Shown one piece after another: positions 34,401-63,785 of a stretch of 64,000 bases of DNA. Source of the stretch: Antedon mediterranea (Eukaryota; Echinodermata; Crinoidea; Comatulida; Antedonidae); assembly GCF_964355755.1 (NCBI RefSeq), contig NC_092679.1, positions 5,952,001 through 6,016,000 of the forward strand. Direction: 5' to 3'. The position numbers and the translations under genes were made by a program. Below the pieces are notes generated by a model. The model worked only from the letters and a program-made list of their open reading frames with translations. It had not been told where the DNA came from and did no database searches. How positions within the stretch are numbered: the stretch's first letter is position 1; the number at the start of each line of letters is the position of its first letter.

Positions 34401-37400
34401 TACATATATGGGCACATCACATTTATTTGTCACATAAAGTTTGATAGTGTAGACAGAGCTTTAGCCTTGACAAATAAATAGTGTTTTCGAAAGCTTGGAA
34501 CTTTCTTTCTGGCCGTTTTAATTTACCATTTTGATTCAGCTTATTTTATTTGTATGTCCATTGAGATCTAGCCACAGCATTGTCATTTTTTCATTAATTT
34601 GCTGATGGATTCATAAATAATTTACAATAACATAATTGTGTTGTCTTTGTGTGGCCATGAATACAGGTAGCTATGCTGTATTAAGTGAGGTTTAAAACAG
34701 GTTCTTGCACATCCAGTTTATTACCTAGCTTAACTTTCCCCTAGTGCTTTTATGAGGTTATTTCCGATGATAACCTCATTCCTGTTAATGTATAAGGTCT
34801 TTCCACCAACATTAACATTTGGACTTTATATAGGTTCGAATATCATTGGGGAAATATCATAAAAATATGTTTGTCGCTCCTAAAGAGGTACTATAAAGAG
34901 TAGTTCATACATAAAGGTTCATTTAAATATGCAACAGGCACATTATGCAAAATAAGAATAAGGTGCTGGTAGTGTTATTATAGTCAAAATTAAAAAAACT
35001 TTATAATTATATTCATAGAAACTGTTTTTACCGCAATATCATGATAATAAAAACCAATACATATTTTTAATTCCTTTAATAGATCATCATAATTTTCCTA
35101 TACTGTGTAGATCCTCATTTGAGTATAGAGATATTTTCTTTTACAGTAATATCATAATAGAATAATAATAATAATAAAGATTGATATTTTCATAGAAATT
35201 TTTGTTACAATATATATTGTATATATATATACTTCTGTCGTAAAACAACAATGTCAATTAGTCTTACATTCATCTGAATGATGACTAAGCCAGGACTGTT
35301 CTCAGATAAGGACTATAAACCATAGGTCCAGTGTACACATCTAGCTCGTGTGCACTTTAAAGAACCTAGTACATCTTTCGAGACGAGTAGGGGTTACCCC
35401 GGTTTATTAGTACATCACAGCCATTGATCACCAACTGGGCCCTTTGACTGAAGAGGTTACCCAGTATAAATATAAATTTCAATCAATATCATAAATATTT
35501 ATTTATATTTAAATTTGTAAGCTATATTGAATTTAAAATCCAAAAGAAATAAATATTGATTTGATTTGGTCCCTCACAACATGGAGGTATAACATGCTCA
35601 TAACATGCTGAGTAGAAATAGTTATAGGTAAACCCATAAGGTGGTGTGCTATATGATTCATATATTATTATCAATAAGTAAATATTGATTGTATTTACAA
35701 ATTGTATCCTTATCATGTGCTTAAAAGCAGTCACCTGCCTTTGTCTCACAAGTTATACAGCAATAGAGACTGCACTGTTAGGTCCTGTCTACACTATCAA
35801 ACTTTATGTGAAAAAAATGTGAGGTGCCCATATATGGACATGATGATGTCATATCACTAGCGTATTTGGGCATAAATATCACTAGCATATTTCGGCATAT
35901 CACTAGCATATTTGGGTATATCACTAGCATATTTGGGCATATCACTAGCATATTTGGGCATATCACTAGCATATTTGGGTATATCACTAGCATATTTGGG
36001 CATATCACTAGCATATTTGGGCATATCACTACTATATTTGGTTATATTACTACCATATTTGGGCATAATCACTACCATATTTAGGAACATCACAATTTTT
36101 GTCAAACTAGTTTGATAGTGTAGACCAAGCTTTAATAGTATGGTTTGTATCCTATTAGTAATTATTATAGCTTTACCAGGACACTATTTGAAAACATAGC
36201 ACCCTAAATACAAGTAGTAAATTTATAAAGCCGGGTTATTAAGGTGGAAATAATTTTCCATTAGTGCCTGTTGAAACAAATAACAAGAACGAATAACATT
36301 AATACCGTACCTAATTCTTGGCGAACACTGCATATCCCAACGCCGTATTCTTCAAGGCTTTCATTTACTTGATCATGGCAATAACCTTCCGTTTCGGAAA
36401 ATCCTAAATAATTATACGAGCCAAAATTGATGGCCTCTATAGATTTACCCGTATACCTGAAAAATAAAACCATGGCAAAAATGATTTGCAAAAATTTGCA
36501 TGGGCATAGTGTAATTGAACCTACACTGCTCTGAATCTGACAACAGCAAGATTGAGTGTAATTGAACCTACACTGCTCTGACAACAGCAACATTGTGTTT
36601 TGGAATGGTAGACAAAGGTATAATGTTTTAAAGAGATTGTGATGAAATTGAAAATTGATTGATTGAAATATATTTATACTGGGCGACCTCTTCAGTCAAA
36701 GACTGGTCTCCCAGAGGGCCCAGTTGGTGATCAGTGGCTGTGATGTACTAATACACCGGGGTAACCCCCTACTTGTCTCGAAAGATGTACTAGGTTCTTT
36801 AAAGTGCACACGAGCTAGATGTGTACACTGGACCTACGGTTTATAGTCCTTATCCGAAAAGACTCGTTCTACCACCAGAACCATGGAGTGAGTGAGCCTC
36901 GAACCCCTGCCGATGTTATGGCTACGTAATTACGGTTTCACTGTCTTAACCGCTCGGCCACTCACTTTATATTATCTAAGGAAAATTTGTAGTGAACAGT
37001 TATCAGTCAAAAGAGAAAAATATTATATCTGTATACAGTTAGTATGATGATTAACCAGGGAAGAAATTGTTTACTTCACTCTTCCCAGGATTAACCAAGC
37101 ATTGTGATGCTAACAATTGCTACGTTTCAGGGGCCACACACATTAATTAAAACTCTTTTTATAATGGGTCTTAGTTACACAATAGGTCAATAATTTTAAT
37201 ATGTAAACATACATATGTTACTACACTGTTTTGAAAATGCACTATTGAAATGAAATGATCCTGAAGGAATTAAATGAAGAATGTCACGCTTCAATGCCCA
37301 ATTCTAAGCGTGTGTATTGTTTGAGCACCAAGCTAGGTCAGGTGTATTGAAGGTACGACGTATTGACAACACACAATGTTCCAAGCTTTATTTACTGACA

Positions 37401-44709: not shown

Positions 44710-47700
44710 TTAAAGATTACTTTTTAAGGCCAGTGGCAAGATATTAGTACGTGTACTTCTCTTTATTTCACATATTACACTTTTGCTAACGTGTTTGTTT
44801 AGAAATTCTAGTATTTTACGCCAAGAATCTTCTTGAGCTTTGGCGTGGCCATCGTGTTGCCCTCCATACAAACTGAGATCATCTGAAAAATAAATTATTT
44901 TGTTGTTTTATGTTTTTTAATTACCATATTTAATGAGGGTGATCCATCCCGCAATTGCTGATCATTAGGGTCCCTCAGAGGTTCACAAGACAAACATATA
45001 CACAAGATGCTCTATATAAACAAAGCCTTATTACAAGTCTTTGGGAGTGGAGTTGTAATTTTGTCCTTAGAAAAATCCTGACATGTGACGGGACTTGAAC
45101 CCAGGACCCTTGGAGTGGTAGCCAAGCATCATAATCACCAACCAACAACTCCACTCCAAAGTGTTTTACAGTATAACTAGTATTTTTGGTTGATTTTTAC
45201 AGTAACTATTAAATTACAGTTTAAGGTATAGAATTTTTTTCAAAACAGGGACTGCAATGTAAATGTAATGTAAAACACAACAATTACTAACTTTTTAGGA
45301 TATACATAGATAAATACAAAATTAAAAATATTTATAGACAAGAAGGGGTTTTAACTTTAACAAATGAATAGTGGTCTAATGGAATGGTGTTTGCATATTT
45401 TTAAGTGAAAGATTTTTTTCGAAACAGTACCGTACTGACGCGGGTATAAGCCCACCGCCCTCGAACATGAAATCACGTCAAGTTTGGGGGGTGGGCTTAT
45501 ACCCGAGGATCCAAAAATGCAGATCGTCAAAAACAGCACATGTACACCGTGTACGTATTCCACCATGCGAGCGAGCGCCCTCACGTGTACGACGTTGCCT
45601 CTAAATACACGAGGTGTAGAGTGTCGGAAAATTAAGCTTATAGTTCGTGTAATTTATCGTAGAATATCTTATTTTAAACATCAATTTAACAAGAATTTAT
45701 CAAGCAGAAAAGCAAGTATACAATGTTCGTTAAATAGAAATGTACCAAAGAAATTTAATAAGCTTGTTTATGGCAGCCGATACCAAATAGTAGTTTTCCG
45801 TTTTGGCGACTTGTAGCGTCATGTGTGAAGCGATCTTCGACCGCGATGGAATGTAAACAAAACAGGACGGCTAGGCCTCATATGGCCTAGCGTATATTAG
45901 CCTAGCTTGGTTATGATCAAAGGTAAGTGTATTCGGTGTATGGACGTCGCCAAATACAAAATAATGTATTACGACATACACTGTAGATTAATGGGTGGGC
46001 TTATACCCGAGTGCCTCATTTTTCATGAAAATTAGTCAAAAGTCGGGGGTGGGCTTATACCCGAGTATGGGCTTATACCCGCGTCAGTACGGTACTAATA
46101 ATGGTGGTATAAAAATGTTGAAAAAAAAACACACAAAAACTTACCAATATAGTCCATGTATACCAATGAACACATAGGAGAGTACGGTGGCTCAATTAAG
46201 TGTCCAGCTCCAGGGTAGCTAGCAACTGTCCAGTTGTTCTTGTCCTTTGATCTTAAGTAGTCAGCAGTTTGTTTTGCATACGCACTCCCTGACCAACATT
46301 TATCCTCGTCACCCGAGATGAGAAGATATTCACATTCTGCATTCTCTAGCTAATAAATGAAGTTTAGGGTGAGTGTCAAGGAGTTTAGGGTGAGTGTCCA
46401 GGAGTTTAAGTTGAGTGTCCAGGAGTTTAGGATGAGCGTTCAATAGTTTAGTATGAGCCTCCAATAGTTAAATAGAGTGTCCAGGAGTTTCGGGTGAGTG
46501 TCAAGGAGGGTACAGTGAGTGTTCAAGACTTTAGGGATAGTGTCCAGGAGTTTAGGGATAGTGTCCAGGAGTTTAGGGATAGTGTCCAGAAGTTTACGGC
46601 GAGTGTGAAGCAGTTTTGGGTGAGTATTCAGGAGTTTAGGGCGAGTGTCAAAAGGTTAGGGTGAGTGCCGATTTAAAAGTTTAGGGTGAGTAGAACTACA
46701 GTAACACAGAATTTTATAGTATGGATCCTAACGCTTTCTACATTCTAGATCTGGCTCTACTCTAACATAATGTCTACTCACCTTCATCATTGCATCTTTG
46801 CATTCCTCTGGCAAGGAAGTTGGAAAATAATTAAGAAAAATGGCTGCATCATCAACATATTCTAGCTTTTTAGGATACACACTGAGAAATAGAAAACAAA
46901 ATATTTATAGACAATGATTGAAGTGGGGAATCTTCTACTCAATCAAATTTTAACATGTGAATAGTGGTCTAACCGTATGGTGCCTGTATATTATCAAATG
47001 GAAGCATCTGAGTTCAATCATTTTTTAATTGTATCGATTTCAGAATTTTGGACAGTTGAGGTTTTCTCTTCTTTAAAATAAAAAAGATCTGATCTACACA
47101 TGCCTACAACACCAACTGTGTTGTGATAGATTGCTGATTTAAGACTTCATAATTCAATTTAGTTATGGAGGCAATTGTGATAAATAGTATGGTTTACAAT
47201 GTTTTCTAGGTATGAACTGTTTAAACTGTACTACATACGGTACGGTTGGACCTTCTTGCTCTTTATACTTGTTGGTCGGATGAGAAGGTATATGATAAGG
47301 ACATCCATTAATACTAACACAAGCTTTTATCTGTTAAATAAAATAAAACAATATGGCATATATGAATATATGTGGCTATAGCTAAGGTTGAAACGACATA
47401 TAAAAGTCCATTTTAGGGCACTATATTTCAACAGTATTTATATTTCATGAATTATTAGTGTCAATGATTGTGTACCTTTCCTGACTGTCGACTATTCACA
47501 CTGACTATCGCGCAGTCTGCACAACACTCCCAACAGTCTCTGGTGTACAGAAGTATAGGTGCTCCCGACAGCGCTTTTGTTAATGTGATACATTTAAATA
47601 ACATGTGTGAATTTCTCGAAAATTTATAATCCATTTCAGGTCCATTTTAACAAAAAGATGGGTTTTATTCCCTAGAGAGAGTTGATTCAGAGAAAGTGAA

Positions 47701-50700
47701 TGTTATGCAGACAGTCAGGCAGCCAGACAGAAAGTGAAACCTACCTTTTGTCCAAATAATGTCGACATCTTAAGAACAATCTCGCCTCCTGTACAGACAC
47801 CAACTAAACCGATACCAGCACTGATAACAAATCTCTGTTCATGCAACCAATCCACAGCTTCCTGCATTTAAAAACAATAGTAATATTTTTATATTTTTTT
47901 ATTGGTCTCTTTTTTTATCTTTTTTCTCGTCTTTTCGTATTTGTATCGTTCCCGTTTTTTAAATTGTTGAGGGCCTCATGCATGTCAGCTTCGGCTGTTT
48001 TGAGTCACCCTCATTAAACAAAGTTTAATAAAAACTAAAAATAATATTAATCTTTATGTAAATATAAATTGTCATAAAATAAAATTTAGACCTGTAGAAA
48101 TATTTGTCACTAAGGTGCTGGCCGAGTACACTTTGTTAATGAAAACCAGCACTGTGTCATTGTGGGACAAAAACCCACAATAAATTTAAAAAAAAAAAAA
48201 AATTTAATAAATAAATTAAAGATACTATACCTAGGCTTTTTCTTAAATTTAAGGTCACACACTACATTTTATATAAAAATAAATACTATATGGACCTATT
48301 GCAATAATTGTTTTCGTCTAAACGGTTAAAAGTGTGAAAAAAAAAATCCCAACATGCATCATGCGCGGATTGATATTTTCATATTGTGATGTAATGCATC
48401 CACTTTGATCGATCGCGTGAAAGGGTAATCAAATAAAATAACTGTTTAACTCCTTAAGAGAAGCAGTAATTCAAGTTTTTTATAGATATAGTGCAGGCCT
48501 TGTCTTTTTAAAATTATAGGTGTCCTACAAATTGCACTCCTCAATATGTAAAGGGGGTGCTGTAGAAGTTTACAAAATTTATGTGTGTTGTAAATCGCAC
48601 TCCTCAAGGGCAGTTTATGAGTGTGTTAGGCGAGGGATCGCACTCGCTCACCTCAAAAGAAAAGGCCTGTAGTGCATTGCTTACCTCAAAATAATCCATA
48701 GTAACTTTAGATATTGATAACGGTAAATCTTTATAAACAAAATATTGTAATGCCAGTGAAGCAAAGCCATGAGAGGCTAGAAGTGCTGAGCGGAATTCTA
48801 CCGGCCTAGCTATACCACCAAACAAATCAATGATCCCCGGAAATGGTCCTGGTCCTGTAGTAAAAGATACCAATTCAACTTGTGACTCCATTAACATTCG
48901 TTATCATCAAATAAAATAAAATAAAATAAAATAAACTGTATATTAGTTAATTACTAATTACTATACTGAGACGATTTAAAGATATATTGTCCTCCTGAAA
49001 AAATAATTCTTAACATTTTTGTTGAATATGTCATTTTAATGCAACATAATAGTTATCCACTTATGACTAAAAATTGCATTAAAAAAAAAATGTATTTACC
49101 TGATAAAACTGTAATTTAAAGCAAATAATGGCCAAATCGGCGGCCAGCCAGTGGGTTTTTGGTTGAATTTAACCATTTATTTTGTCATTTTATAAGTAAA
49201 AACATTAATTTTTTTTCTATTAACTTTATTAAAACTACAAATTTAACATATTCAAAGTCTGATTTAATTAATCTTCATTTTTCATGTTTTTGGGGGACAA
49301 TACATCTTTAACCGTTTTTTAAAGAAATAAATGTATTTTTTATTGAACTGACTAATATTTAAAAATATACCAAATTAAAACAAAAAATATATTTAAACTT
49401 TGAAAAGATATTCATTGAAAACGTCCATTTGACTGCAGGTTGTCTTTTTACAAAATGATAATCCAGAATTTATTTTTAAAAATCAGCATGGTCATGCATT
49501 AGTTAATAATTACAATTCCATATATTCCGGATCAACTTTGTGTTGTTACTGCCAGTGTAAATGGGGTAGATGTAAAATAAAATATGGTTTGTGCATATGC
49601 TACACTATATTATGTCAAAACATAACAAATTAATTAAATCAGACTTTGAATAGGTCATTTTCTAGTTTTCATAACGTTAATAATAGTTTCACTTATAAAA
49701 TGACATAATAAATGGTTCAATTCAACCAAAATTCCATTGGCTGGCAGCCAATTTGACTATTGTTTGCATAAAATTACAGTTTTTTCAGGTAAATATTTGT
49801 TTATACCCAATTTTAGTGTATAACGTGTGCGTGTAATTATTTGACATCAAAATGGCATATTCAACACAAAAAGTTTTTGCAGGGGGACATCTTTAACAAA
49901 CCTTTTGGCTTGAACAAAATCCCTCTGATGTTACCCCTTTCCACGGGTATCCTCTCCACATCTTCATTCATATACCATCGATCTACGCTAGTTGTTGCTA
50001 AAACTTTCAGAGACGATTTGTAAAAGTCTTTGATTGTATGAAACCCGTTGTAGACTCTTAAAACAGTAATTAAAGGTGTTGTGACATCTTTTTTAAGTAA
50101 CCGAGTTCCACGCTTCTCTTTGGGTGCTGGCTGCATGCTTGTGAACAGGCCCATGCTTTGTACACCTATATAAAGAAGAACGTTCATGTTTTTGCTTCCA
50201 ATAAATAAATATTATATTGATACTAATTACAAATATATATTAATGAAAAACCTCAAAAATATTAAAAAGGAATATTAATTATAATTTAATAATTGTACTG
50301 TACTTCATTGACATTCCATATCTTTATTACAGGTTGTATGGAGTTACCTAATAATTTTTCTATTGACCAATTAATTGTGTTCATTCTGCCTGAACAATAC
50401 ACGAACGCTATTATAAGTAAGAAAAAAGAAAGGTGCAACCCCAAACCCATCAATCCCCATTCCAACCCCCTCCCCCTTTCCCCAAAAAAGTCCAAAAAAC
50501 TAGTAGGTAGTAGTATCTATAAAAATTATCTATAAATAGTTACCAACCTGAGTAGGTTCCACCAAGAGATGAGTTGATATTAGTATGAACATACCCACTG
50601 CCATCGTCTTGAAAATGAGCACAAGAATCGTACGTCTTCCCACACTCTGTTGCCGATGCTCGTAGCGTAATCAAACTGTTCGGTTGAAGGCCTACAACCT

Positions 50701-50758
50701 CTATGGAGATTTTCTCATCAACCAAGGTAGACTTTGGATAAACAGTCAGGGTTACCAT
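44710..50758 (-). CDS. BAAT / acyl-CoA thioesterase family protein, cysteine-nucleophile paralogue, complete
   Basis: Alpha/beta-hydrolase of the bile acid-CoA:amino acid N-acyltransferase and acyl-CoA thioesterase family. Exons in order: 50548-50758, 49902-50165, 48685-48854, 47745-47861, 47239-47330, 46782-46881, 46145-46349, 44710-44882; phases agree and give 443 aa (human BAAT 418). The N-terminal domain (1 to about 150) ends in [12 protein letters not shown]; the hydrolase domain follows with [11 protein letters not shown], a nucleophile elbow GVCTGG with Cys238, then Asp334 (ISGDEDK) and His368 ([10 protein letters not shown]). Cysteine at this place is what human BAAT (Cys235) uses for amide formation, whereas thioesterases carry serine. 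The protein ends KSNL, resembling weak peroxisomal PTS1 signals such as the SQL of human BAAT. The start is the first ATG before the conserved VTLTVYPKS. The substrate (bile salt, fatty acyl-CoA, other) cannot be told. It is a tandem paralogue of the gene at 57157-60923. Confidence 0.93.
44925..45165 (-). mobile_element. tRNA-derived SINE family 3, minus copy
   Basis: Inverse of the 27113 copy: the right end holds the head (GGAGTGGAGTTG inverse, B box at GGGACTTGAACCC inverse) and the left end the ATTAAATATGGT tail. In intron 7 of the Cys-type BAAT gene. Confidence 0.65.
45426..46096. mobile_element. TIR transposon, 671 bp, GGTATAAGCCCAC family
   Basis: Both ends read AGTACCGTACTGACGCGGG followed by TATAAGCCCA in inverted orientation; extra copies of GGGCTTATACCCG lie near the right end. 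It occupies intron 7 of the Cys-type BAAT gene, 48 bases from the donor of exon 7. No coding region is convincing. Confidence 0.7.
46360..46690. repeat. Minisatellite, about 20-bp unit, some 16 copies
   Basis: Units built on GAGTGTCCAGGAGTTTAGGG, diverged, fill most of intron 6 of the Cys-type BAAT gene. Confidence 0.8.
48205..48430. mobile_element. Partial relative of the 18740-19266 MITE
   Basis: Shares the words GCGGGTTGATATTTT (here GCGGATTGATATTTT) and CGATCGATCG plus the TTAAGATCACA-like left end. It lies in intron 3 of the Cys-type BAAT gene. The ends are not clear. Confidence 0.4.
48494..48669. mobile_element. CAGGCCTTG MITE, copy 2
   Basis: 176 bp, about the same length and layout as the copy at 23531; TAGTG flanks it on both sides. 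It ends 15 bases from the exon 3 donor of the Cys-type BAAT gene. Confidence 0.7.
48980..49307. mobile_element. TTAA MITE family 3, copy 1
   Basis: TTAA flanks it at 48976-48979 and 49308-49311; ends AGATATATTGTCC and GGGGGACAATACATCT inverted. In intron 2 of the Cys-type BAAT gene. Relatives lie at 49629-49892 (opposite orientation), about 31273-31596 and about 39970-40380 (decayed). Confidence 0.65.
49629..49892. mobile_element. TTAA MITE family 3, truncated copy abutting an exon
   Basis: Inverted relative of copy 1, lacking its left end. The right end (GGGGGACATCT then TTAA at 49893-49896) is five bases from the donor of BAAT exon 2 (GTTTG at 49897-49901 on the minus strand). Confidence 0.6.
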
Positions 50759-51166
50759 ATTTTCACTAACGAATAGTAACACACCCGGTACAACTCACAA
50801 TGATTGCCGTTGTTACGTGCTCCATTTCCGTTCTGGTACACGCCTCCTCACACCCTCACGTGTTTTTGATTAAGGTTTCACAACAACAAGTTCTTTGTTT
50901 CACACTCGTCACGAGTGAAAAAAGGTTACCGGCGGCGGTGTGATGATGTAATCATTGACCCTTGCATGCTGCACGTACGGCTGGGACGACGTGAAGTGAT
51001 AGGGGAATTCCCTCATTATATCATACAGTACATGACTGCTGTATAATGTGTTTCTCATAATAGAGTCTCTGATATAGAGGTATAATCATGGAGGTATAAA
51101 ACTTCCATGGTATAATATAGGTAAGGCCGTAAAATCAGTACGTAAGTGTATCAACTGGGTGCAGGT
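50759..51166. promoter_or_regulatory. Upstream region of the Cys-type BAAT gene
   Basis: GC- and CpG-richer than its surroundings between 50800 and 51010, with CACGTG at about 50858-50863 (an E-box). It ends at transposon A. The promoter role is inferred from position. Confidence 0.4.
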
Positions 51167-52298
51167 CAACTCGGCCCTAAACCGTCTCGGCCAAAGTCAA
51201 GTCGGCCCCACGTCAAGTCGGCCCCAAGTCAAGTCGGCCTCAAGTCAACTCGGCCTCAAGTCAATTCGGCCTCACGTCAACTCGGCCTCAAGTCAACTCG
51301 GCCTAAAGTCAACTCGGCCAAAAACTAATCCGTCAACTCGGCCTTTAAAAAGTATGGAACGCAAAAAGTGCTAATATAGTAGTTCATTTATTACAATGGC
51401 AGGATATTACGGTCAGGCCTACATAATAGACGAAATAAAACGGAAATTTCAATGTAAATTATAACACACTGGCTGATCGTTTTTCGTTTGATAGGTAATT
51501 TTTATTTATATTGTTGGTTGGTTTGTCTCAGTAAGAACCCTCAGTAATGTGTTTGTTAGATCTATTTTGAGGATGTTCCCAGAAATAATCGCAAATATTC
51601 TTAGAAGGCCTATATATTATATAGATATTATTAGATTAATACAGTAAAATAAAAATGGTTTTTTTTTTGTATATTATTCTCTCTCAAATTATTAGCAATA
51701 TGTCACGGTCAAAGTGAATAACTATATGTGACATTAATTAAAATGGTATATTACAGTAACAAAATCTTTTCACACATTTATTGACGATGTCAATCAAACT
51801 ACCGAAGAGATTATGGAAACAAATTCGGAATGTTCTGTCATGTTAAATTTCTATTGCAATTGTGCGCTATTCAAATTGTTTTTATTACTTTTGTGATTTG
51901 ATTATAATGGAGAATCCAATGAATACATTTATGGGAAATTAATCTAGAACACACTGAAGAAATCATCATGAATAAATGGTGTATTTTTATTTTGTCAAGC
52001 ATATAAACTAATCTAAAACACATTGAAGAAATCATGAAAAAATGGCGTATTTTTATTTTGTCAAGCAAAAACTAAAACATATTGTTTGAGTCCAAAACAA
52101 CGGAATTCCTAAACAACATAATATTGCCTTTGCATTCTCATCTGTTTTTTAACACCCACCGCGCCCTGTATTGTTCAATAAAATTGATCACCTAAAGGGG
52201 CATTCCCACCGTCCGTACCTGTTCCGTTTCGCGGACGGCGCCGTTTTTTCAACGTGACGCGCGCCCGTTCACCGTTCCGTTTTAAACATTCACACCTG

Positions 52299-52828
52299 GG
52301 GCGGATTGCTATAAGGGGTCTATAACCGGTCTTAGCGCTTAGCCGGCTATAATTCGTGACGTAGCAAGTAGTCTAACATTATAGACCATTGCTATACCGC
52401 GGTCTAACCTGTAAACGGTCTTTAAAATTAAAGCCTACTCGAAGGAGTCTTAAAACAGTCTTAAACCTCTCTTTTTGTTGCTTTTACGTATTATTTATCG
52501 TCAAAGACAACCAATAGAACGAGTTTTAAGTGTTAAATCAAATAAAAACGGTGATTTTATTCTTATATAGCCCTAGAATAGATTTTCTTGCGTAGAAATG
52601 TACGTACTGTTATGATTGTGAATTGAACAAGCGTGACGAACATTACCTTATTTGGTATTTTACGCGCAAAGTACGCCCTCAATTTGTTACTTTACGCGGT
52701 CTTATCTAAGACTGTTTTATAGCAATGGTCTAACAGGGGTGGCTTTAGTAAGACCGTCTATCGGATAAAGCCGGCTTTAATCGGGGAGTTAAGACCATTA
52801 GTTAAGACTGTTTTATAGCAATCCGCCC
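52299..52828. mobile_element. Inner transposon C, 530-bp MITE
   Basis: Terminal inverted repeats GGGCGGATTGCTATAA are flanked by CTG on both sides (52296-52298, 52829-52831). The interior repeats the words TAAGACC and GCCGGCT in both orientations. The flanking sequence (52190-52295, 52832-52870), rich in CGTTCCG, resumes on both sides and may be a further, older repeat. Confidence 0.65.
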
Positions 52829-53512
52829 CTGTTCCGTTTTGTGACGTGACGTTCGTTTCTGGATGATCATCGGATGATAGTGAGGAAGAAAATTATTCTT
52901 TTTAGTTTAATTAAAGATGATATTACAAAACGGGACACAAGATTCCCGATGATAGTATAACAACACACACCATGACAAATTCCATGAATCCATAATTAAA
53001 TACAATAAAATCACAATCACATCCCTATGGACTGTTATGGAAGCAAATTTCTCTCTTCCCATGCTGTACTGTATTAATTATGAATATGAAGTACTAAACG
53101 AAATGAAAATAAAAATGTCATACAAAAAAAACCGTAAGGCCTATTTGAAAATAATGCACATTCATGTCTGGGTGTGTGTGCATGTAACCTATACCCATAA
53201 TGCTTATGCAATTTGTTTTCTTGCCTTTTGATTTGTTTTGATTTTAATGTCATTATTCTTTTTATATTGATGTATATACAGTTGTAGACCGAAGTATATT
53301 GTTTAAATATTATTTTTTTTAATGTCTTCTTCGACAGTTATTCCTGTATACAAAATGTGAAAAAATATTTGTTTATTTCAAACAATATAAATAAATACTA
53401 CCTATCAATTAATATTATATAATCATTTATATTGAATTTTCCGTTGTATTTCGTCTATTATGTAGGCATAACCGTACTATATCCTGCCATTATAATATTA
53501 ACTACTATATTA

Positions 53513-55308
53513 GGCCATGTAAAAAAAAACAACAGTTGATCGTCCTGGTTTTCTAAAAAAAGGAAGTAAGAGGCTCTTTTTATTTTTTATTTTTTATTTT
53601 TCCAAGATGGCGATTCACTACCGTATTTTCTTGAATAAACATGCCGCTATGAATAAAAATCACTCCCACCCCTCGCATACAACCTTCCTGACAATTCAAA
53701 TAAATATGGTAAGTACTGTAAGATGTCTAAACAAACATAAGTATACAGAACAGCAAATATTATAATACACCTTTTTTTTTATTTTATCAGGGGGTCACAA
53801 TAAAAGTCCTTTTTGTACACTTTGACTTTATATCAAACTTCTGGATATTATTAGCCTACTGTGGCACAAATGCTCTAGTGTTTTTCCTTTTGGGTGTTTT
53901 GCCTGATTCCTTGCATTCACTACAAAGTGGATAATTCATGTTCTCAATTGATAAATTGTGCTCAGTTCCACAATAAAAGCACAGGGGGTCTGTGAATGTT
54001 ATGTAATAAGCTGCTTCGATAGGCAGGGCACATGTCATTTTGTCATTGACAAAAACAATAGAATCGTCCTCTCCCAGGATGTCTTGAAAACAAGTTCCAC
54101 ATGAATACGACAGTGTGTCCAGTTCTCGTTCCAAGAGCTGCCCTTGGTCACGCTTCAGAACATGTGCTGCATAACATACTCGCCACTTGAGGCATTCTTC
54201 ACACTAGAATAAAGAATGAAAAAGAGTAGGGGTAAATATATGGTAAATTCAGTTGTGTTGAAAGAATTCTGAACATGACAATAATATGATAATATGACAT
54301 CCAAAGAGGGAGGGAATATCAATGCATACACACATATTTTAAACAGGACGTGGGTCATGTACCCGAACACGTCCGTAAACATCTAGCCTATATATATGGG
54401 ACAGTTTCAACCCAGCCGGGTTGATTCGCCCCTCTATATGGATAGGCAAACTCTACACTCTCTCGCGACAATATGCTAGCCTACAGTTTTGTTACTTCTA
54501 TATGAACATTTTTACCGAACAATTACTCACCTCCGTAGTTTGGTATTGGTCTCCTATCGGTCCACCTTGATCGAATTCGCCGCCTGCAAAATCAGAGAAA
54601 ATGTCTGCGAGAGTACGTCGGCCGTCCACTACACCGTTCTCGCATACCAAGCAAGGGCCGGCTTCACGATTTTTGTTGCAGTCCGAATTGAAACACAAAT
54701 AAAAACCATGTTGTTTATCTACTATCTAGTCTAGCAGTATCCTACTATCCTAGATCAAATTATTATGTAACAGTTGATAAAAGGACTAAAAAGTAGGCCT
54801 ACCAAGGAACCAATAATTATAAATATTAATAGTGTATACTGTAACTCAAATGTATAGAATATAGCGATAGAAACAAGGTAGAACCAAAAACATGTGTTCT
54901 CCAAATCCAGTCGTTTTTTGCTTCACGGCAACATTTTTAGGGAGTAGCGAGCATATAGCGGCTGTGAAAATTCTAATTAGATCCAGACGTTTATGTAAAA
55001 TATTATACCCATGATGAGTGTAATTCAAAATATTCATACATTCAACGGCAGTGATACCTCTATCATCGCTGACCTATAATCAAAGAATATGACCTCAAAT
55101 TTATCGCAGTCGACGATGTGTATCGATGGCTCCCGACGGCTGTGGATCACGAAAAAAGAAAGAGCTAGGCCTAGCTTTCGACAAAGGTACAACATAAATC
55201 AATGTTTTATATACAAAATATCGAAATAAAAAATAAAATAAAAATTGAAGCGGCCTGAAAAAAGCATGCGGGCGGGGACGATCAACTGTTGTTTTTTTTT
55301 ATATGGCC
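53513..55308. mobile_element. Inner transposon B, 1.8 kb, TTA target duplication (PIF/Harbinger-like size)
   Basis: Both ends read GGCCAT(G/A)TAAAAAAAAA followed by CAACAGTTGATCGTCC in inverted orientation. TTA flanks it at 53510-53512 and 55309-55311; removing the element and one TTA restores the right arm of element A. A 3-bp TTA duplication suits PIF/Harbinger, but no transposase was seen. It carries the Cys-rich gene remnant. Confidence 0.75.
53856..55073 (-). pseudogene. Cysteine-rich zinc-ribbon-like gene remnant carried by a transposon
   Basis: Minus-strand exons lie within the transposon at 53513-55308. Exon a: about 54850-55073 (frame with RGITAVECMNIL and KRLDLIRIFTAAICSLLPK; its donor is uncertain). 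Exon b: 54531-54725 (65 codons, phase 0 at both ends; FYLCFNSDC, GPCLVC). Exon c: 53856-54203 (CEECLKWRVCY, SYSCGTC, LCFYCG, LCSEC; stop at 53856). Paired cysteines suggest zinc binding. No initiating ATG or upstream exons are visible and no transposase catalytic motif was found, so it looks like the 3' half of a gene. Similar Cys-rich proteins are, from memory, common beside transposons in marine invertebrates; I cannot name the family. Splicing of b to c is well supported; a to b is weaker. Confidence 0.6.
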
Positions 55309-55501
55309 TTAGCACTTTTTGCGTTTCATAGTTTTTAGAGGCCGAGTTGACGGATTAGTTTTTGGCCGAGTTGACGTGAGGCCGAGTTGACTTGAGGCCG
55401 AGTTGACGTGGGGCCGAGTTGATGTGGGGCCGAGGTGACTTGGGGCCGACTTGACGTGGGGCCGACTTGACGTGGGGCCAAGACAGTTTAGGGCCGAGTT
55501 G

Positions 55502-56275
55502 GATCGAAACCAAATCAAGCATAAGTGACAATCATAATATATAGTAGGCCTACTGTACATTCATTTTTTTTAAATGGATGTCTCTCTCTTGAACAACTTG
55601 TTCATGCTTTTGTTACGTCACGTCTTCGTCTTTACATTGGAAATTCTTTCCCTTTTAATCAAATTCAAATAAAGTGACTCAGCCGTTTGCCAAATAATGC
55701 TGACGGCAAATTTACGGACTCTGAGAACACATAACAACCGGAATTTTAAATAGATCAGCATTCCGGGCTCCCAATTACTGACAGGATCGTTTTTAAAATA
55801 CTTGTCTTTGTCTATACCGTTCTTCAACATACCACATACCACATTTATTTTTGTGTCTGCAAATTCATTGATTCCTTATTTTAAAGCTTAAGACCTTTAT
55901 CATCAGCTCGGACTTTTGATTTCATTCATTCACTGCATGCATTGTGTCAATGCATTATTACCATCTAATTTGTGATGGAAACCGGCGCAAGATTTCCTTA
56001 TTATTATCTCTGGATGAATACTTCATAAAAAATAATTCATAATATACAGTAGTAATATTTGTTATTGCATTTTTATTTTATAAATTCATGGTTATTATAA
56101 AAACAATTTTATTTTACAATATTTATGGTATATACAGTATTTACAAAAAGACATTTATATAATTTTGCTATTTCTACTAAAAATCCTTACATTTTTGTTT
56201 TTGTTTCAGTCTATCTTACCACTAGGTGTGACCATGGATTCTTTAATCCATGGTGTGACATGTAAGGGTAATCAA
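55502..56275. other. Spacer between transposon A and the next element
   Basis: A minus-strand open frame at 55618-55842 is unrecognised and has no splice or start context that convinces; nothing else is seen. Confidence 0.4.
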
Positions 56276-57135
56276 AGAATATAATATATCACAAGAATGA
56301 GTATCCCGCGATTTTTGCATGAGAAATTTGTAACAGAGAGCTCCAGAGAGTGATGCCCGCCCTCATAAGGGCGGATGTATACATACTAAATAAGACTTGA
56401 TTTAATAGATATTATACAATATACATGTCACAGAATGTCATAGAATTATGATAATAGTTTTTGCAATTGTGAACTATTTTATAATACATATTTATTAACA
56501 AACTAGTGTACATTCACTTTGAGAGACAATTATTTACTAACATGCTAAGTTAGTTCACAAAAAAGGCCTAACACAGCAACACCAAAAATCAACGAATCGT
56601 TACTCAGCATGGCCTATTCTTTACCATTGCCGTGTACTACTCTACGCCCGGTAAATTAAGTATTGTTTTTATGATATAAATTAGTATAAAATACATGTTA
56701 TTAATAGGACAAAATGTTAAATGTCATTAACATTTATTTGTTTTACCAGAAACAAGTTAAATATAGGAATATTATTAAACTATCCTTCGTGAAAACGCGT
56801 AAACACCAACACGCCCGGTCACGCTATCGTAGCGCCCGGTTGATAAAGCAAACTGTTTATACGGCAGTTTTTACTAAATAAATTGCATAAAACGAACAAT
56901 TAAATATCCAAATATTATTTAACATGATGTTGGCATGTAGTTATTAACATTTTTTATCATGAAAATACTACCGGTGGTCCAGCCTTTGATTAGTGAAACC
57001 GTCACAAAAAGTTGTATACATATCCCATCCCAGATACATCCACACTTATGACGGCGCCCTACCACATGGACAATATTACTGTTACAGGGAAAATCGCGGA
57101 ATACTCATTCTTGTGATATATATTCTTTGGGGTAA
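56276..57135. mobile_element. TIR transposon of about 860 bp abutting the 3' end of the Ser-type BAAT gene
   Basis: AAAGAATATA(AT) and TCACAAGAATGAGTAT(C/T) followed by CCGCGATTTT occur inverted at the two ends; the similarity decays inward over about 120 bases. The right end is about 20 bases beyond the BAAT stop codon at 57157. AATAAA signals on the gene's strand occur inside the element at 56491-56496 and 56733-56738. Confidence 0.6.
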
Positions 57136-57156
57136 TATATTACTGACATATTTACA

Positions 57157-60100
57157 CTATAATTTGCTTTGTTGCGTTATTATCACTCCTATCCCACCGA
57201 AAGAGGGCACACTTCGTACATGGTCACTTTCTCCGACATGCTCCTTGAAAAATGCTAAAGTTTTTTCCCATGAGTCTTCTTGAGCAACTGAATGTTCGTC
57301 TGGGTAACCACCATATTTAACAGCTACACCTGTAACAATAGAATAGTTCTGTTAAACATTTGCATCAAAATAAAATAGAAAAAGAATAACAGACTCTTAC
57401 AATTCAGACAATTTGTTCTAACAATAGGCTATGTGATAGACAAAACAGGGAAGTGAACTTGTATTATTTATGCCTAGTTTATACAGCTAAAATGTGTATT
57501 CTGTATTAGTATGGAAAAGTCTTAAACGTTATGGCTAAAGATACGGTACCGTAACCATACTTCTAAAAACTAAAGGAACGGTAATTATAATAATAGGCCT
57601 AAAGGGTGCTATGTAAGATAGATGTTAATCCAATAGGTTATGGCAATGTTTTTCACCACGCCAGCTGTGTGGCTCAGTGGGTTTGTGATGAGGCTTGGCA
57701 TAAGGGGTTGGAGGTTCGATTCTTTACTTTAGGTTTTTAATATTTAGGAACGAGTTTTAATATTTAGGAACGAGTTTTATATTTAGGAATGAGTTTAATA
57801 TTTAGGTAACAAGTTTTAGGAATGCCATTTTACCGCCTTTAGCAAACGGAAGCGACCTCTATAATTACAGTACCTTTAGTTTATACGGTATCTTTAGCCA
57901 CGGCGATTTTTAAAACAGGGAAATACTCACTGTAAGACTTGTGATAACAAACAGAACAAAGAGGAGCATACGGTGGCTCAATGAGATGGCCAGCTCCAGG
58001 GTAGCTTAATATCTTCCAGTTGTCTTTGCCATGTTCTTTAAGATATTCACATGCTAACTTGGAGTGTACTTCGCTGGTGCTTTTATCATCAAGACCAGCG
58101 ATAAAAAGAAATTGACATGCAGCATCTTCAAGCTGTGAAATAAAACCTTATACTTATTTTGATGCTAAAAGATCATTACTGTGTTGTATAGCCACTTGTG
58201 ATTGGCTATTCACTCAATAATATTTTCATAAATGTATACAGTATTTGGAAATTACTGAAATTCGATGTGGGCACACAACAACTCACCTCCTTTATGACAA
58301 CAATTGTTACACCGACGATCTTTTAAATTAATTTCTGGGGCTTCCGTATATCCTAGAAACACCAGTAAAACTCTTCTTGATTGAGGCCTGTTACAATTAA
58401 CTGCTAATGTAGAAAACGCCAGCTAATGTCGAAACAACTGCTAATGTAGAACAATCTACCGCTAATGTAGTAATCTCAAGCTAATGTAGCGGTTGTTTCG
58501 AAGCTTGCGTTTTTTAGTTGTAACAAGGCGCCAGATAGTTTCTCCGCAAACGAAAAACGCGCTGAACTGACGCAGAGATAATTATTTGGACATAACAAGA
58601 AACGATAAAACAAAGACTTATGGCAAGTATAATAAAACGTGACCTTCTATGATGAAGAACTTACATTAATAATTGTTGAGTGGTCAATATCTTCACGTTT
58701 ACAAGGCAAGTAACGAGTAATGTCAACAATGTCATCTTCTTTAACAACTCTATCAAGATAAACGCTAAACAAAAAACATACATGATATTAGAATTCAAAA
58801 TTGTATATTTTAATCATGTAGGTATTCACATCCTGAATTGTACACATGTTATGTGTTGACATTTACATCCAGATTTGAGCTATACCAGTCATGCCAACAT
58901 CCAAACATCCGAAACATGGTAGTGCTACTGACAAAAAATGAGTCACTGGTGTCTATAACTTAAATTCTCATATACTGTACATATATAATAAATTCTCATA
59001 TACTGTACATATATAATTTAAGTATGTGTCTCCTTCAGAAAGGAGGGTCAGGAGGACGTATATTTGAGTGATTACTTTTTACCAATCACTAAGTAATTAA
59101 TCAGTATTTTCTTACTTTAAACAGTTGGATTCCTTTCCTTTGTATAATCTTGCAGGCTCACCTGGGGTATAGAATGGAGTTCCATTTATGCACACACACG
59201 CTTTGACCTAACAAGGGTCAGAAAAACACCAATTACCTTAATATTTTTTTAATAGTTTTAGTTTGTTAATTATAGTTTGACACAATATTATAGTGACAAA
59301 GTTTATGAAATCATGGAGGAATCTCTGTGATTAAACAAAGTGAATGCTTGTTAACCTTTGGTCCACAAATGGTCGACAGCCTCAGAACAGCTTGAGCTCC
59401 TGCAGACACTCCGATGATGCCTATCCCAGAATCCATCACACATGGGTTGTTTAACATCCAATCAACTGCCTCCTGCAAACATAGTATAAAGATATATTGC
59501 CTTCCTGCCTTAGACAAAATTATTGTTTAAATAGTTAACTATGGATTAACTACGGTAGGGTAACTATAGTTTAACTAGATTAACTATGGATTAACTATTG
59601 TTGTAATCTTTGGATTTTTTGTATATCAATTAACTCGTTGATGAGAGTGACTCATTTTGGATAGTGGAATTATATATATATATCTTGTTTAAATATTGAT
59701 ATACATGCATATCTTTAGCAACCAGTGTACTATGGTTCACCTCTATTAAGGGATACAATTTTAAAATAAACATATAGGCCTAGGCCTATGTTTCAACAAA
59801 CCCGCTTCAAAAAAGGGACATTTTGTTGGATCCCAAATGTGTCACTTTTACAGCTTGTACTAAGAAACTGTGGAAATTATATTTCAAGTACATGTAATAG
59901 GACCAGCAGCTTTATGCCCATCTGAAGAATGAGGGATTAGTCGACTAAAGCCGTATAGGCACACACGCTTGTCAGAATTCCATTAACCATTTTTGCGCCA
60001 CCCCCAGCCCAACTTGATTAATAAAGAGATCAATTAAATGTACTGTACCTCAAAATATACCATATCAACTTTTTTTATGTCTGTTACCAAATCTTCATAA

Positions 60101-60923
60101 GCAAAATATGCCAACGCAAGGGAAGCAAAACCATGGGTGGCAAACAAGGAAGAACGAAATTCTGTGACTCCTCCAGAAGCACCAAATAAATCAATAATAC
60201 CTGGAAATGGACCCTTACCTGTAACATAAATTAAACAAAGCATAATTCGGCATTGTAGGCGAGGTGATTAATTAATTAACAAAGTTGTTTCTTTAACAAG
60301 ACATTTGTCAATACCTTTTGGTTTAAACAATGTTCCTCTAATATTTCCACTTCTAACCTCTATCCTATCAACATCTTTTCCCATATACCACCTTTCAACT
60401 GTCGTCTTGCCCAGAACAGATTGTGTTAGTGATTCAATATTATTTGAGTAAAAATTTGCAGTTGACAAAAATCCTTTATACACTGTTATATGGAATAGGA
60501 GCGGCGTTGTAACATCTTTCTTGACTAATCGTGTACCTGCTTTTTGTCCAGGTGAAGGTTGCATGTGTGTGAATAAACCCATCGGCCTAATTCCTGAAAA
60601 AAATTATATTCTGTTCTGTGAGACTGTAGTTAACCATTTATACTTTTTAAATTAATTAATATGTGTCCAATTAATGACAGATTCATTTTGATATTTGTTA
60701 GTAGCTACTCACCCTTGTAACTACCGCCAATTGACGGGTGCGAATCGACTTTCACTGCCCCGTTTACGTCAGGAATAAAATGTGCATACGCTTCAAAAGT
60801 CCTTCCCCTTTCCTCCACAAATGCCCGAATTGTTACATTTGGGAATTCATGTACGCCGTACACACATACCGAAATAGTTTCATCAATAAATGCTGCTGCT
60901 GGAGTAACTATAAATTGTGTCAT
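57157..60923 (-). CDS. BAAT / acyl-CoA thioesterase family protein, serine-nucleophile paralogue, complete
   Basis: Second family member, same strand. Exons in order: 60713-60923, 60315-60593, 60049-60218, 59356-59472, 59116-59207, 58665-58764, 57931-58132, 57157-57329, giving 447 aa. Exons 1, 3, 4, 5, 6 and 8 have exactly the same lengths as in the upstream-numbered paralogue (211, 170, 117, 92, 100, 173 bases) and all intron phases match, so the pair arose by duplication. The hydrolase domain has [11 protein letters not shown], a nucleophile elbow GVSAGA with Ser243, Asp339 (LDDK) and His372 ([10 protein letters not shown]). Serine is the thioesterase-type residue, so acyl-CoA hydrolysis is the more likely activity, by analogy. 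The chain ends QQSKL: a canonical SKL peroxisomal targeting signal. Introns are short, 96 bases at the least. The stop lies about 20 bases from an inverted-repeat transposon. Confidence 0.94.
57664..57810 (+). mobile_element. tRNA-like SINE head followed by a small tandem repeat
   Basis: TGTGGCTCAGTGGGTTTGTG (A box-like) and GGTTCGATTC (B box) lie about 40 bases apart; four copies of TATTTAGGAACGAGTTTTAA-like sequence follow (57739-57810). In intron 7 of the Ser-type BAAT gene. Too irregular to be a working tRNA. Confidence 0.5.
58400..58490. repeat. Short tandem repeat of CTGCTAATGTAGAA type
   Basis: GCTAATGTAG occurs five times in 90 bases, spaced by short A-rich words, in intron 6 of the Ser-type BAAT gene. 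Confidence 0.65.
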
Positions 60924-61351: not shown

Positions 61352-62087
61352 CAGAGCCATATATATATGTAATGCGCGATTTGAACGATTTGCGCAATTT
61401 GAAATTGCGCAAGGATTTTCTTGCGCAATTTCAAATTGCGCAAAAAATTCCTTGCGCAATTTGAATTGAAACATGTGTTTCAAATTGCGCAAGCAACGTA
61501 TTAAATTGCGCAAGTAATCTGCAAATTGCGCAAGGTTTTTCGACAGATTGTGAAATCATGCACACCCATATTTTTTTAGTAATTTCTAAGAATGATTCAA
61601 AATTAAAGATAATGTCGCATTTCCTTACCCTCCCGGGAGCCTCCACTCCCGATTTTTTTTTCCGAATAAAAAAAATCTCGAATTCCCAATGGTTCTATAA
61701 AATACCATATTCAAACATAATATGAGGAGAAGGCATAGGCCTAAATAAATACCAATAGTAATATAATAATTTCAATTCAAATATCAGTACTAATGACGAT
61801 TAATAATACCTAAGACAACAATCAATAACAAACAGTTCGTTTTCAAATTGCGCAAAGGTGTCATATTGCGCAAGAACTATCTTGCGCAATTTACAAATTG
61901 TGCAGCGCAATTTGAAATTGCGCAAGGATTTTCTTGCGCAATTTCAAATTGCGCAAGTTGATTGCACAATTTAATATTGCGCAAGAAAATCCTTGCGCAA
62001 TTTTAAATTGCGCAAACATTCTTTGCGCAATTTTAAATTGCGCAAATCGTTCAAATCGCGCATAACATATACATATATATGGCTCTG
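61352..62087. mobile_element. hAT-type non-autonomous element (MITE) with 8-bp target duplication
   Basis: Ends CAGAGCCATATATAT in inverted orientation, flanked by perfect CTATTTCA at 61344-61351 and 62088-62095. An 8-bp duplication and a CAG start are hallmarks of hAT. The inside is made of many TTGCGCAA palindromes spaced by AATTTCAAA words, so each arm can fold on itself. No coding capacity. Confidence 0.85.
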
Positions 62088-62639: not shown

Positions 62640-63245
62640 TGTGAATGTCTCTGGCAAAATTAATGTTTAAAAGATCTAAATTGTACATTTATGCCGGTAG
62701 GGCAAGAGTGCCAAGCTTTACAATTATTCTTTCTTCTATAATTCTACGAGATGTCTCAGAACCATTACATACCTTAACACCAGAAATTTTAATATCCGAA
62801 ATAAAAGGGAATGCTCATTATTACAAAAATGGGTGGCTACAGGTAATCCGGGAGTCTTTAGTTTAATAGACCTAACCTGCGTTTAGTTTCACCAATATAA
62901 AGCATATTACATTTAGTACACCGTTACACGAAATACAATAAACTAGATTTCTAGTGGTGCACGTAATACGATCTGTGATAACATAATTACCAGAAGGTCC
63001 TACTATTTGGTTTGAACATGAAACGTAATTACATGTCGAACATCTATTTCTATTACATTTGAATGTTCCAGTTGATTCATTACCTTTGTTTTGTAATTTA
63101 GATTTAACTAAAGTGTCTTTAATGCTTTGATCACGTCTGTAAGCTATCATGGGTGGTTCTTGAAAAATATCTTTTGTAGCGGATTTAGCTTCAGTCAAAA
63201 TTGAAAAGTTATCGCGGACAATAACCTTCTTATTCATAGGATGAT
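62640..63245 (-). pseudogene. Penelope-like element, GIY-YIG endonuclease portion, frameshifted
   Basis: On the minus strand: DRIPLVLTYHP, an IAYRRD-x-SIKDTLV block, FKCNRNRCSTC and TCTTRNLVYCISC, the linker typical of Penelope-like elements. After a one-base frameshift the frame continues CTKCNMLYIGETKRRLG, the GIY-YIG core, and KTPGLPVATHF; another frameshift leads to ETSRRIIEERIIVKLGTL. It is broken, so inactive. The non-coding 3' part (62330-62640) carries a hammerhead-like motif. Confidence 0.75.
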
Positions 63246-63314
63246 ACGTGAGGACTAGAGGTATGCGGTCACAAGCATTTGTATTAGGTGTAGGTTGCAT
63301 ATTTTGTCCTCGTG

Positions 63315-63785
63315 CGTATTTTGAGCAGAATGTGTTACGAGATTTTAAGGGAAAGAAACCAGATTTATTCAAACGGTATATTGATGATTGTGTTGGTGTT
63401 ATGTCGGGAACTTTAGATGAACTTAATGAGTTCATTAACTTCGTGAACAATTTTCATCCTGCTATAAAGTTTACTCATGAAATTTCTGACAAGTGTGTGC
63501 CTTTCCTTGATATTAGTTTATCTATTGATAAACCTGGTCTTTCTATCCGTTCACTACAAAGATACTGACGCGCACACTTATCTAAATTACAACTCTTCGC
63601 ATCCTCCAGCTTTTAAGAATGCTATACCGTATTCGCAACTTGTTAGACTTCGACGTTTATGTAGCGATGATGATGACTTTAACATCAAAGCATCTGAGAT
63701 GATCGATTTTTTCAATGCACGCGAATATCCTATGGAGCGACAAAACTCGCAAAGACAAAGAAAACCACTGGGAATTACAACTTAA
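63315..63785 (+). pseudogene. Penelope-like element, reverse transcriptase portion, frameshifted, opposite strand
   Basis: On the plus strand: FEQNVLRDFKGKKPDLFKRY followed by the catalytic IDD, then VPFLDISLS. After a frameshift near 63545 come SVHYKDTDAHTYL, NAIPYSQLVRLRRLCSDD and MIDFFNARE. The order fits palm-to-thumb of a Penelope-type RT. It faces the endonuclease piece head to head, so the locus is rearranged. The rest runs to or past the window end without an open frame. Confidence 0.7.

Follow-up and report, generated by a model that had tools for sequence, protein, structure and literature searches.

A candidate Cys-type N-acyltransferase gene beside Ser-type paralogues in a BAAT/ACOT gene cluster of Antedon mediterranea

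Two BAAT/ACOT family genes in the window

We analysed a window of 64,000 nucleotides from Antedon mediterranea contig NC_092679.1 (C10, positions 5952001-6016000) and rebuilt the models of two genes therein, G1 and G2, by a custom splice-aware protein-to-genome alignment. Both genes lie on the minus strand, all of their introns are of the GT-AG type and there are zero frameshifts. Their features are given below in window coordinates and, unless another source is named, stem from the spliced models.

44710..50758, minus strand: G1, Cys-type BAAT/ACOT family gene, 443 aa, 8 coding exons (spliced model; PF04775 and PF08840)
50548..50758, minus strand: G1 exon 1, start codon at 50758
49902..50165, minus strand: G1 exon 2
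48685..48854, minus strand: G1 exon 3
47745..47861, minus strand: G1 exon 4, carries the nucleophile elbow GVCTGG
47793..47795, minus strand: G1 nucleophile codon TGT, Cys238 (alignment column shared with the Ser of ACOT2/4 and Cys235 of BAAT)
47239..47330, minus strand: G1 exon 5
46782..46881, minus strand: G1 exon 6
46145..46349, minus strand: G1 exon 7, carries Asp334 (46304-46302) and His368 (46202-46200) (alignment and spliced model)
44710..44882, minus strand: G1 exon 8 with stop codon
44713..44721, minus strand: G1 C-terminal Ser-Asn-Leu, putative non-canonical peroxisomal targeting signal (sequence)
57157..60923, minus strand: G2, Ser-type paralogue, 447 aa, 8 coding exons
60713..60923, minus strand: G2 exon 1, start codon at 60923
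60315..60593, minus strand: G2 exon 2
60049..60218, minus strand: G2 exon 3
59356..59472, minus strand: G2 exon 4, carries the nucleophile elbow GVSAGA
59404..59406, minus strand: G2 nucleophile codon TCT, Ser243
59116..59207, minus strand: G2 exon 5
58665..58764, minus strand: G2 exon 6
57931..58132, minus strand: G2 exon 7, carries Asp339 (58087-58085) and His372 (57988-57986)
57157..57329, minus strand: G2 exon 8 with stop codon
57160..57168, minus strand: G2 C-terminal Ser-Lys-Leu, canonical peroxisomal targeting signal (sequence)

G1 gave full-length matches to PF04775 (E=2.6e-32) and PF08840 (E=3.5e-56) and could be aligned nearly end to end with human ACOT2 (239 bits) and human ACOT4 (238 bits). 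The family resemblance is therefore not a chance one, and the BAAT/ACOT identity proposed in the first-pass annotation is borne out by both Pfam domains and the ACOT2/ACOT4 alignment. Alignment with ACOT2/4, BAAT and 15 bacterial homologues identified the triad of G1 as Cys238-Asp334-His368; that of G2 is Ser243-Asp339-His372. Spliced models and alignment together confirmed what had been read from the sequence at first pass, namely two linked, intact eight-exon genes that differ in Cys238 versus Ser243 and keep Asp and His. The accompanying claim of shared exon lengths and phases held for the intron phases, which are 1,1,0,0,2,0,1 in both genes, but only in part for the lengths, which are equal in six of the eight exons (exon 2, 264 nt in G1 vs 279 nt in G2; exon 7, 205 vs 202 nt). 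The two proteins are 47% identical. Of the 23 family positions that hardly vary, G1 has altered three, including the nucleophile, and G2-G7 only 0-1 each, so that some relaxed constraint on G1 is possible. Human ACOT4, a solved enzyme, likewise deviates at three near-invariant family positions.

The interval between the two genes contains a 4.3-kb stretch (51191-55501) resembling a terminal-inverted-repeat element. Its inverted arms (51204-51374 and 55309-55479) are 171 nt long, 92% complementary and contain short 'caactcggcc' repeats. Just upstream of G2, at 61360-62080, many inverted 'ttgcgcaatttcaaattgcgcaag' copies were noted by eye as a foldback-like repeat.

Nine family members in the genome

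The whole genome (354 Mb, 18 contigs) was searched with both Pfam domains and spliced models were then made, which yielded nine full-length BAAT/ACOT members, five on C10 and four on contig C2, a different chromosome; the search ran exon by exon, and the count of nine may miss a diverged tenth gene. The assembly contains no mitochondrial contig, and two tektin exons from it have the sea-urchin sperm tektins (PDB 8snb) as clearly the best match among solved structures (175 versus 136 bits and 211 versus 135 bits), in keeping with an echinoderm. Every one of the nine proteins matches both PF04775 (N-terminal) and PF08840 (C-terminal), and a Cys/Ser-Asp-His triad occupies the aligned columns, in the form Ser-Asp-His in G2-G9. 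Thus, the tandem pair described at first pass does consist of two real genes, but it is part of a five-gene cluster, whose three further Ser genes, like the four genes on C2, had escaped the first reading. G3-G5 are situated past the window edge, where the cluster reaches about 17 kb further. G2-G4 have the same strand as G1 and G5 the opposite one; after G5, self-comparison detected a tandem array whose unit recurs about every 85 bp (C10, about 6033284-6035016). On C2, G6 is solitary (C2:3146250) and G7-G9 are arranged in tandem (C2:14468293-14479229). The exon architecture of G1 and G2 is a trait of all nine genes and not specific to the pair.

A Cys nucleophile is present in one of the nine genes, G1, and Ser in all others, that is in G2-G5 of the cluster and in the four C2 members. 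In G1 the nucleophile codon is TGT, and the remaining genes for which it was read out have TCT or TCA; comparing TGT with TCT, Cys and Ser are therefore one base apart. G2-G5 are 85-98% identical to each other and hence recent copies, whereas G1 is older, with 47% identity to the remaining members of the C10 cluster. G3 and G4 represent a recent tandem duplication with a spacing of 8.36 kb (C10:6017295-6029488). The G3 gene is a mosaic, its 5' part having about 97% DNA identity to G2 and the rest about 98% to G4, which suggests conversion or unequal exchange. G2-G5 are a lineage-specific expansion and have no one-to-one orthology to ACOT2/ACOT4.

G2-G5 terminate with -SKL and G1 with -SNL, while the C2 genes G6-G9 are devoid of such a signal. 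Zebrafish Hacl1 is listed with SNL as its predicted PTS1. For a human variant that turns SNP into SNL, the gain of a PTS1 was predicted and then tested, and the readout of Pex5 binding increased from 0.065 to 1.808. The C-terminus of G1 thus matches a tripeptide that is usable as PTS1 in other proteins, and a peroxisomal location of G1 is predicted from sequence. The G7-G9 cluster on C2 and the solitary G6 are possibly the cytosolic counterpart.

Origin of the Cys nucleophile

A scan for bacterial outgroups that used the nine proteins alone yielded zero matches; a scan with a mixed alignment yielded 80 loci. One row of this mixed alignment, a consensus-like bacterial fragment, served only to bias the search patterns and is present in no tree. 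The tree was calculated from the nine genome members, human BAAT, ACOT2 and ACOT4, with 15 bacterial homologues as the root and with the nucleophile column excluded; the sampling is thin, comprising one Cys reference (human BAAT), two ACOTs and this genome as the sole invertebrate. The human BAAT sequence was checked by length and triad positions only: its length of 418 and the positions of Cys235, Asp328 and His362 agree with those published.

The bacteria branched first, followed by G6-G9 and then by a clade of human BAAT and ACOT2/4 (96/92) that is sister to a clade of G1 and G2-G5 (100/99), the supports of this branching order being 96-100. The tree, a step put forward in the first-pass annotation, placed G1 next to its Ser neighbours and not next to BAAT. 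A clade uniting G1 with BAAT was rejected (48 log units worse, p-AU 5e-5 and 3.6e-6), so by this tree G1 is not a BAAT orthologue, and under a second model all four alternative topologies were rejected. The signal for G1+(G2-G5) was spread across 12 of 14 protein segments, and the nucleophile was the single site most strongly contrary to it. We also considered an older orthology of G1 and BAAT masked by gene conversion and disfavour it because the signal is spread along the protein.

The aligned nucleophile is Ser in 15/15 bacterial homologues. Because these outgroups and the C2 genes all have Ser, the Cys of G1 was most likely gained independently of vertebrate BAAT via one base change. The possibility raised at first pass that the trait arose on its own here is supported by the position of the Cys gene among Ser neighbours, the rejected BAAT clade and the favoured independent Cys. 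The statement 'BAAT only in vertebrates' is true of orthologues within the present tree and false for Cys-type family members, of which G1 is one. An identity of G2-G5 as ACNATs by descent from BAATP1 was discarded, as G2-G5 group with G1 and outside the human clade in this tree, in which BAAT and ACOT2/4 of human represent the mammals.

Proposed activity and alternatives

In enzymes of this family, the nucleophile accepts the acyl group from CoA; attack by water then leads to hydrolysis, and attack by taurine or glycine to an amide. Replacement of Ser by Cys generally slows hydrolysis of the acyl-enzyme. The first-pass annotation had linked Cys in mammals with conjugation and Ser with hydrolysis, a rule that is too strong. 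The N-acyl taurine synthase of mammalian liver peroxisomes is BAAT, which has an active-site Cys and is sensitive to NEM, but the mouse and rat enzymes ACNAT1/2, with an active-site Ser and resistance to NEM, synthesize N-acyl taurines as well (PMC10470208). Our literature search for BAAT C235S found no paper; human BAAT with Ser235 is described as retaining taurine conjugation and mostly losing glycine conjugation (PMC6934887). Switching between Cys and Ser at the BAAT nucleophile does happen in mammals: among 118 species, Cys changed to Ser ten times and Ser to Cys twice, every intact gene of the BAAT branch has Cys or Ser, the enzymes conjugate and the residue is a poor predictor of the conjugate (PMC6934887). 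Ser enzymes also conjugate taurine, and Cys is therefore neither required for nor proof of conjugation. As the rule is unpredictive, the linked pair by itself cannot reveal how the two activities split, contrary to what had been hoped. Nevertheless, the Cys raises the chance that G1 catalyzes acyl transfer, which we put near one half.

G1 resembles BAAT (EC 2.3.1.65) in its two-domain architecture, in its Cys-Asp-His triad with a Cys nucleophile (Ser in G2) and in a predicted non-canonical peroxisomal C-terminus (SNL in G1, SQL in the human BAAT sequence used), with an identity of about 41% to human BAAT. It differs from BAAT in that it is sister to G2-G5 and not orthologous, has 8 coding exons and has the elbow GVCTG in place of SVCQG. 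With ACOT2/ACOT4 (PDB 3hlk, 3k2i) the family shares the fold, by homology across about 410 residues, and G2-G9 also the Ser-Asp-His triad, in contrast to the Cys nucleophile of G1. Rodent ACNAT1/ACNAT2 are, like the genes of the cluster, tandem BAAT-family genes with a peroxisomal signal (PMC10470208, PMC6934887). They originated from mammalian BAATP1 by a Cys-to-Ser change (PMC6934887), whereas the change proposed for the cluster is Ser to Cys.

The gene models, the triads, the copy number, the tree and the sequence-based targeting signals were computed here; all of the chemistry, including which acceptor and which acyl substrate are used, is inferred. With a probability of roughly 0.5, G1 is a peroxisomal Cys-type N-acyltransferase whose Cys was gained independently, and G2-G5 are Ser thioesterases or ACNAT-like enzymes. 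G1 would belong to the type-I ACOT/BAAT family and be a peroxisomal enzyme with an alpha/beta-hydrolase fold that acts on acyl-CoA, in which a single base change converted Ser to Cys after the split from the ancestor of G2-G5 and independently of BAAT. Cys238, activated by His368-Asp334, would attack acyl-CoA to give an acyl-thioester enzyme, and an amine would then be preferred over water as the recipient of the acyl group, with taurine as the likeliest acceptor and glycine as a less certain one, giving N-acyl amino acids. G2-G5, having kept Ser, would act as peroxisomal acyl-CoA thioesterases or as ACNAT-like taurine transferases. The Cys could also be a neutral or a hydrolytic variant.

One alternative, which we consider somewhat unlikely, is that all nine proteins are plain acyl-CoA thioesterases and that the Cys of G1 is a tolerated swap leaving the reaction unchanged. 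It agrees with the presence of Ser in eight of nine genes, in ACOT2, ACOT4 and all bacterial rows, and with the frequent and poorly predictive swaps in mammals; however, the mammalian BAAT-branch enzymes conjugate with Cys or Ser when intact, and the slowed acyl-enzyme hydrolysis would make a Cys enzyme a poor thioesterase. The Ser genes might instead hold both activities, with G2-G5 as taurine conjugators and G1 as a divergent copy that has another substrate or is losing its function. Ser-type ACNAT1/2 set a precedent in synthesizing N-acyl taurines (PMC10470208), G2-G5 are recently amplified and have the canonical -SKL, and near-invariant sites are altered thrice in G1 as opposed to 0-1 times in G2-G7. 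Decay of G1 is at odds with eight fully open exons, intact splice sites and triad and a potentially usable targeting signal, and the same number of deviations occurs in human ACOT4, so that we regard this reading as decidedly unlikely.

Cys might also be ancestral to the deuterostome clade of BAAT, ACOTs and the cluster, Ser having been regained separately in the ACOTs and in G2-G5. Such a history would make amidation by a Cys enzyme older than vertebrates, and it draws on the excess of Cys-to-Ser over Ser-to-Cys changes in mammals (ten to two) and on the unique residues in common with BAAT (27 in G1 vs 14 in G2) and with ACOT2 (22 in G2 vs 14 in G1). It requires three changes instead of two, and in a two-state likelihood analysis the probability of Cys in the common ancestor was 0.02 with equal rates and 0.26 with Cys-to-Ser 5-10 times faster, a rate modelled because of the mammalian record. 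Moreover, orthology of G1 and BAAT was rejected, and BAAT is reportedly missing from fish (PMC8919083), which argues against common descent of the Cys. We therefore judge an ancestral Cys unlikely. A sequencing or assembly error, TGT for TCT, is highly improbable: one base does decide the residue and the call rests on the assembly, but adjacent codons differ as well between G1 and G2, the locus has diverged to 47% protein identity and the assembly is otherwise clean across 16 exons.

Under our preferred reading of G1 as a Cys-type N-acyltransferase, the gene is a named candidate for an invertebrate enzyme joining fatty acids to taurine or glycine. It matters because N-acyl taurines are on record from sea urchin, as also from crustaceans and a sponge, and because a 2026 paper (PMC13050040), which states that BAAT and FATP5 are confined to vertebrates, concludes that invertebrates must conjugate fatty acids with amino acids by other enzymes. 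That an echinoderm Cys-type N-acyltransferase, which evolved separately from BAAT out of a thioesterase-like enzyme with Ser, makes the echinoderm N-acyl taurines or amidated steroid acids is a tenable possibility that we put forward tentatively; literature searches found no confirming paper for taurine-amidated starfish steroids and none on echinoderm BAAT genes. Should conjugation prove to be a property of G1 but not of its Ser neighbours, G1 would be a second independent Ser-to-Cys case beside mammals, separating the role of the nucleophile from the rest of the BAAT scaffold. In the well-studied mammalian case the residue alone failed to predict the product; here, the locus pairs a Cys candidate with adjacent Ser paralogues as internal controls, and NEM sensitivity should separate the two types.

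Further from the two genes, a minus-strand open frame at 36261-36593 resembles serine palmitoyltransferase by eye and may mark a sphingolipid gene that lies upstream of the cluster. At 62872-63600, each strand has open frames that resemble, by eye, retroelement remnants of RT or endonuclease-like type.
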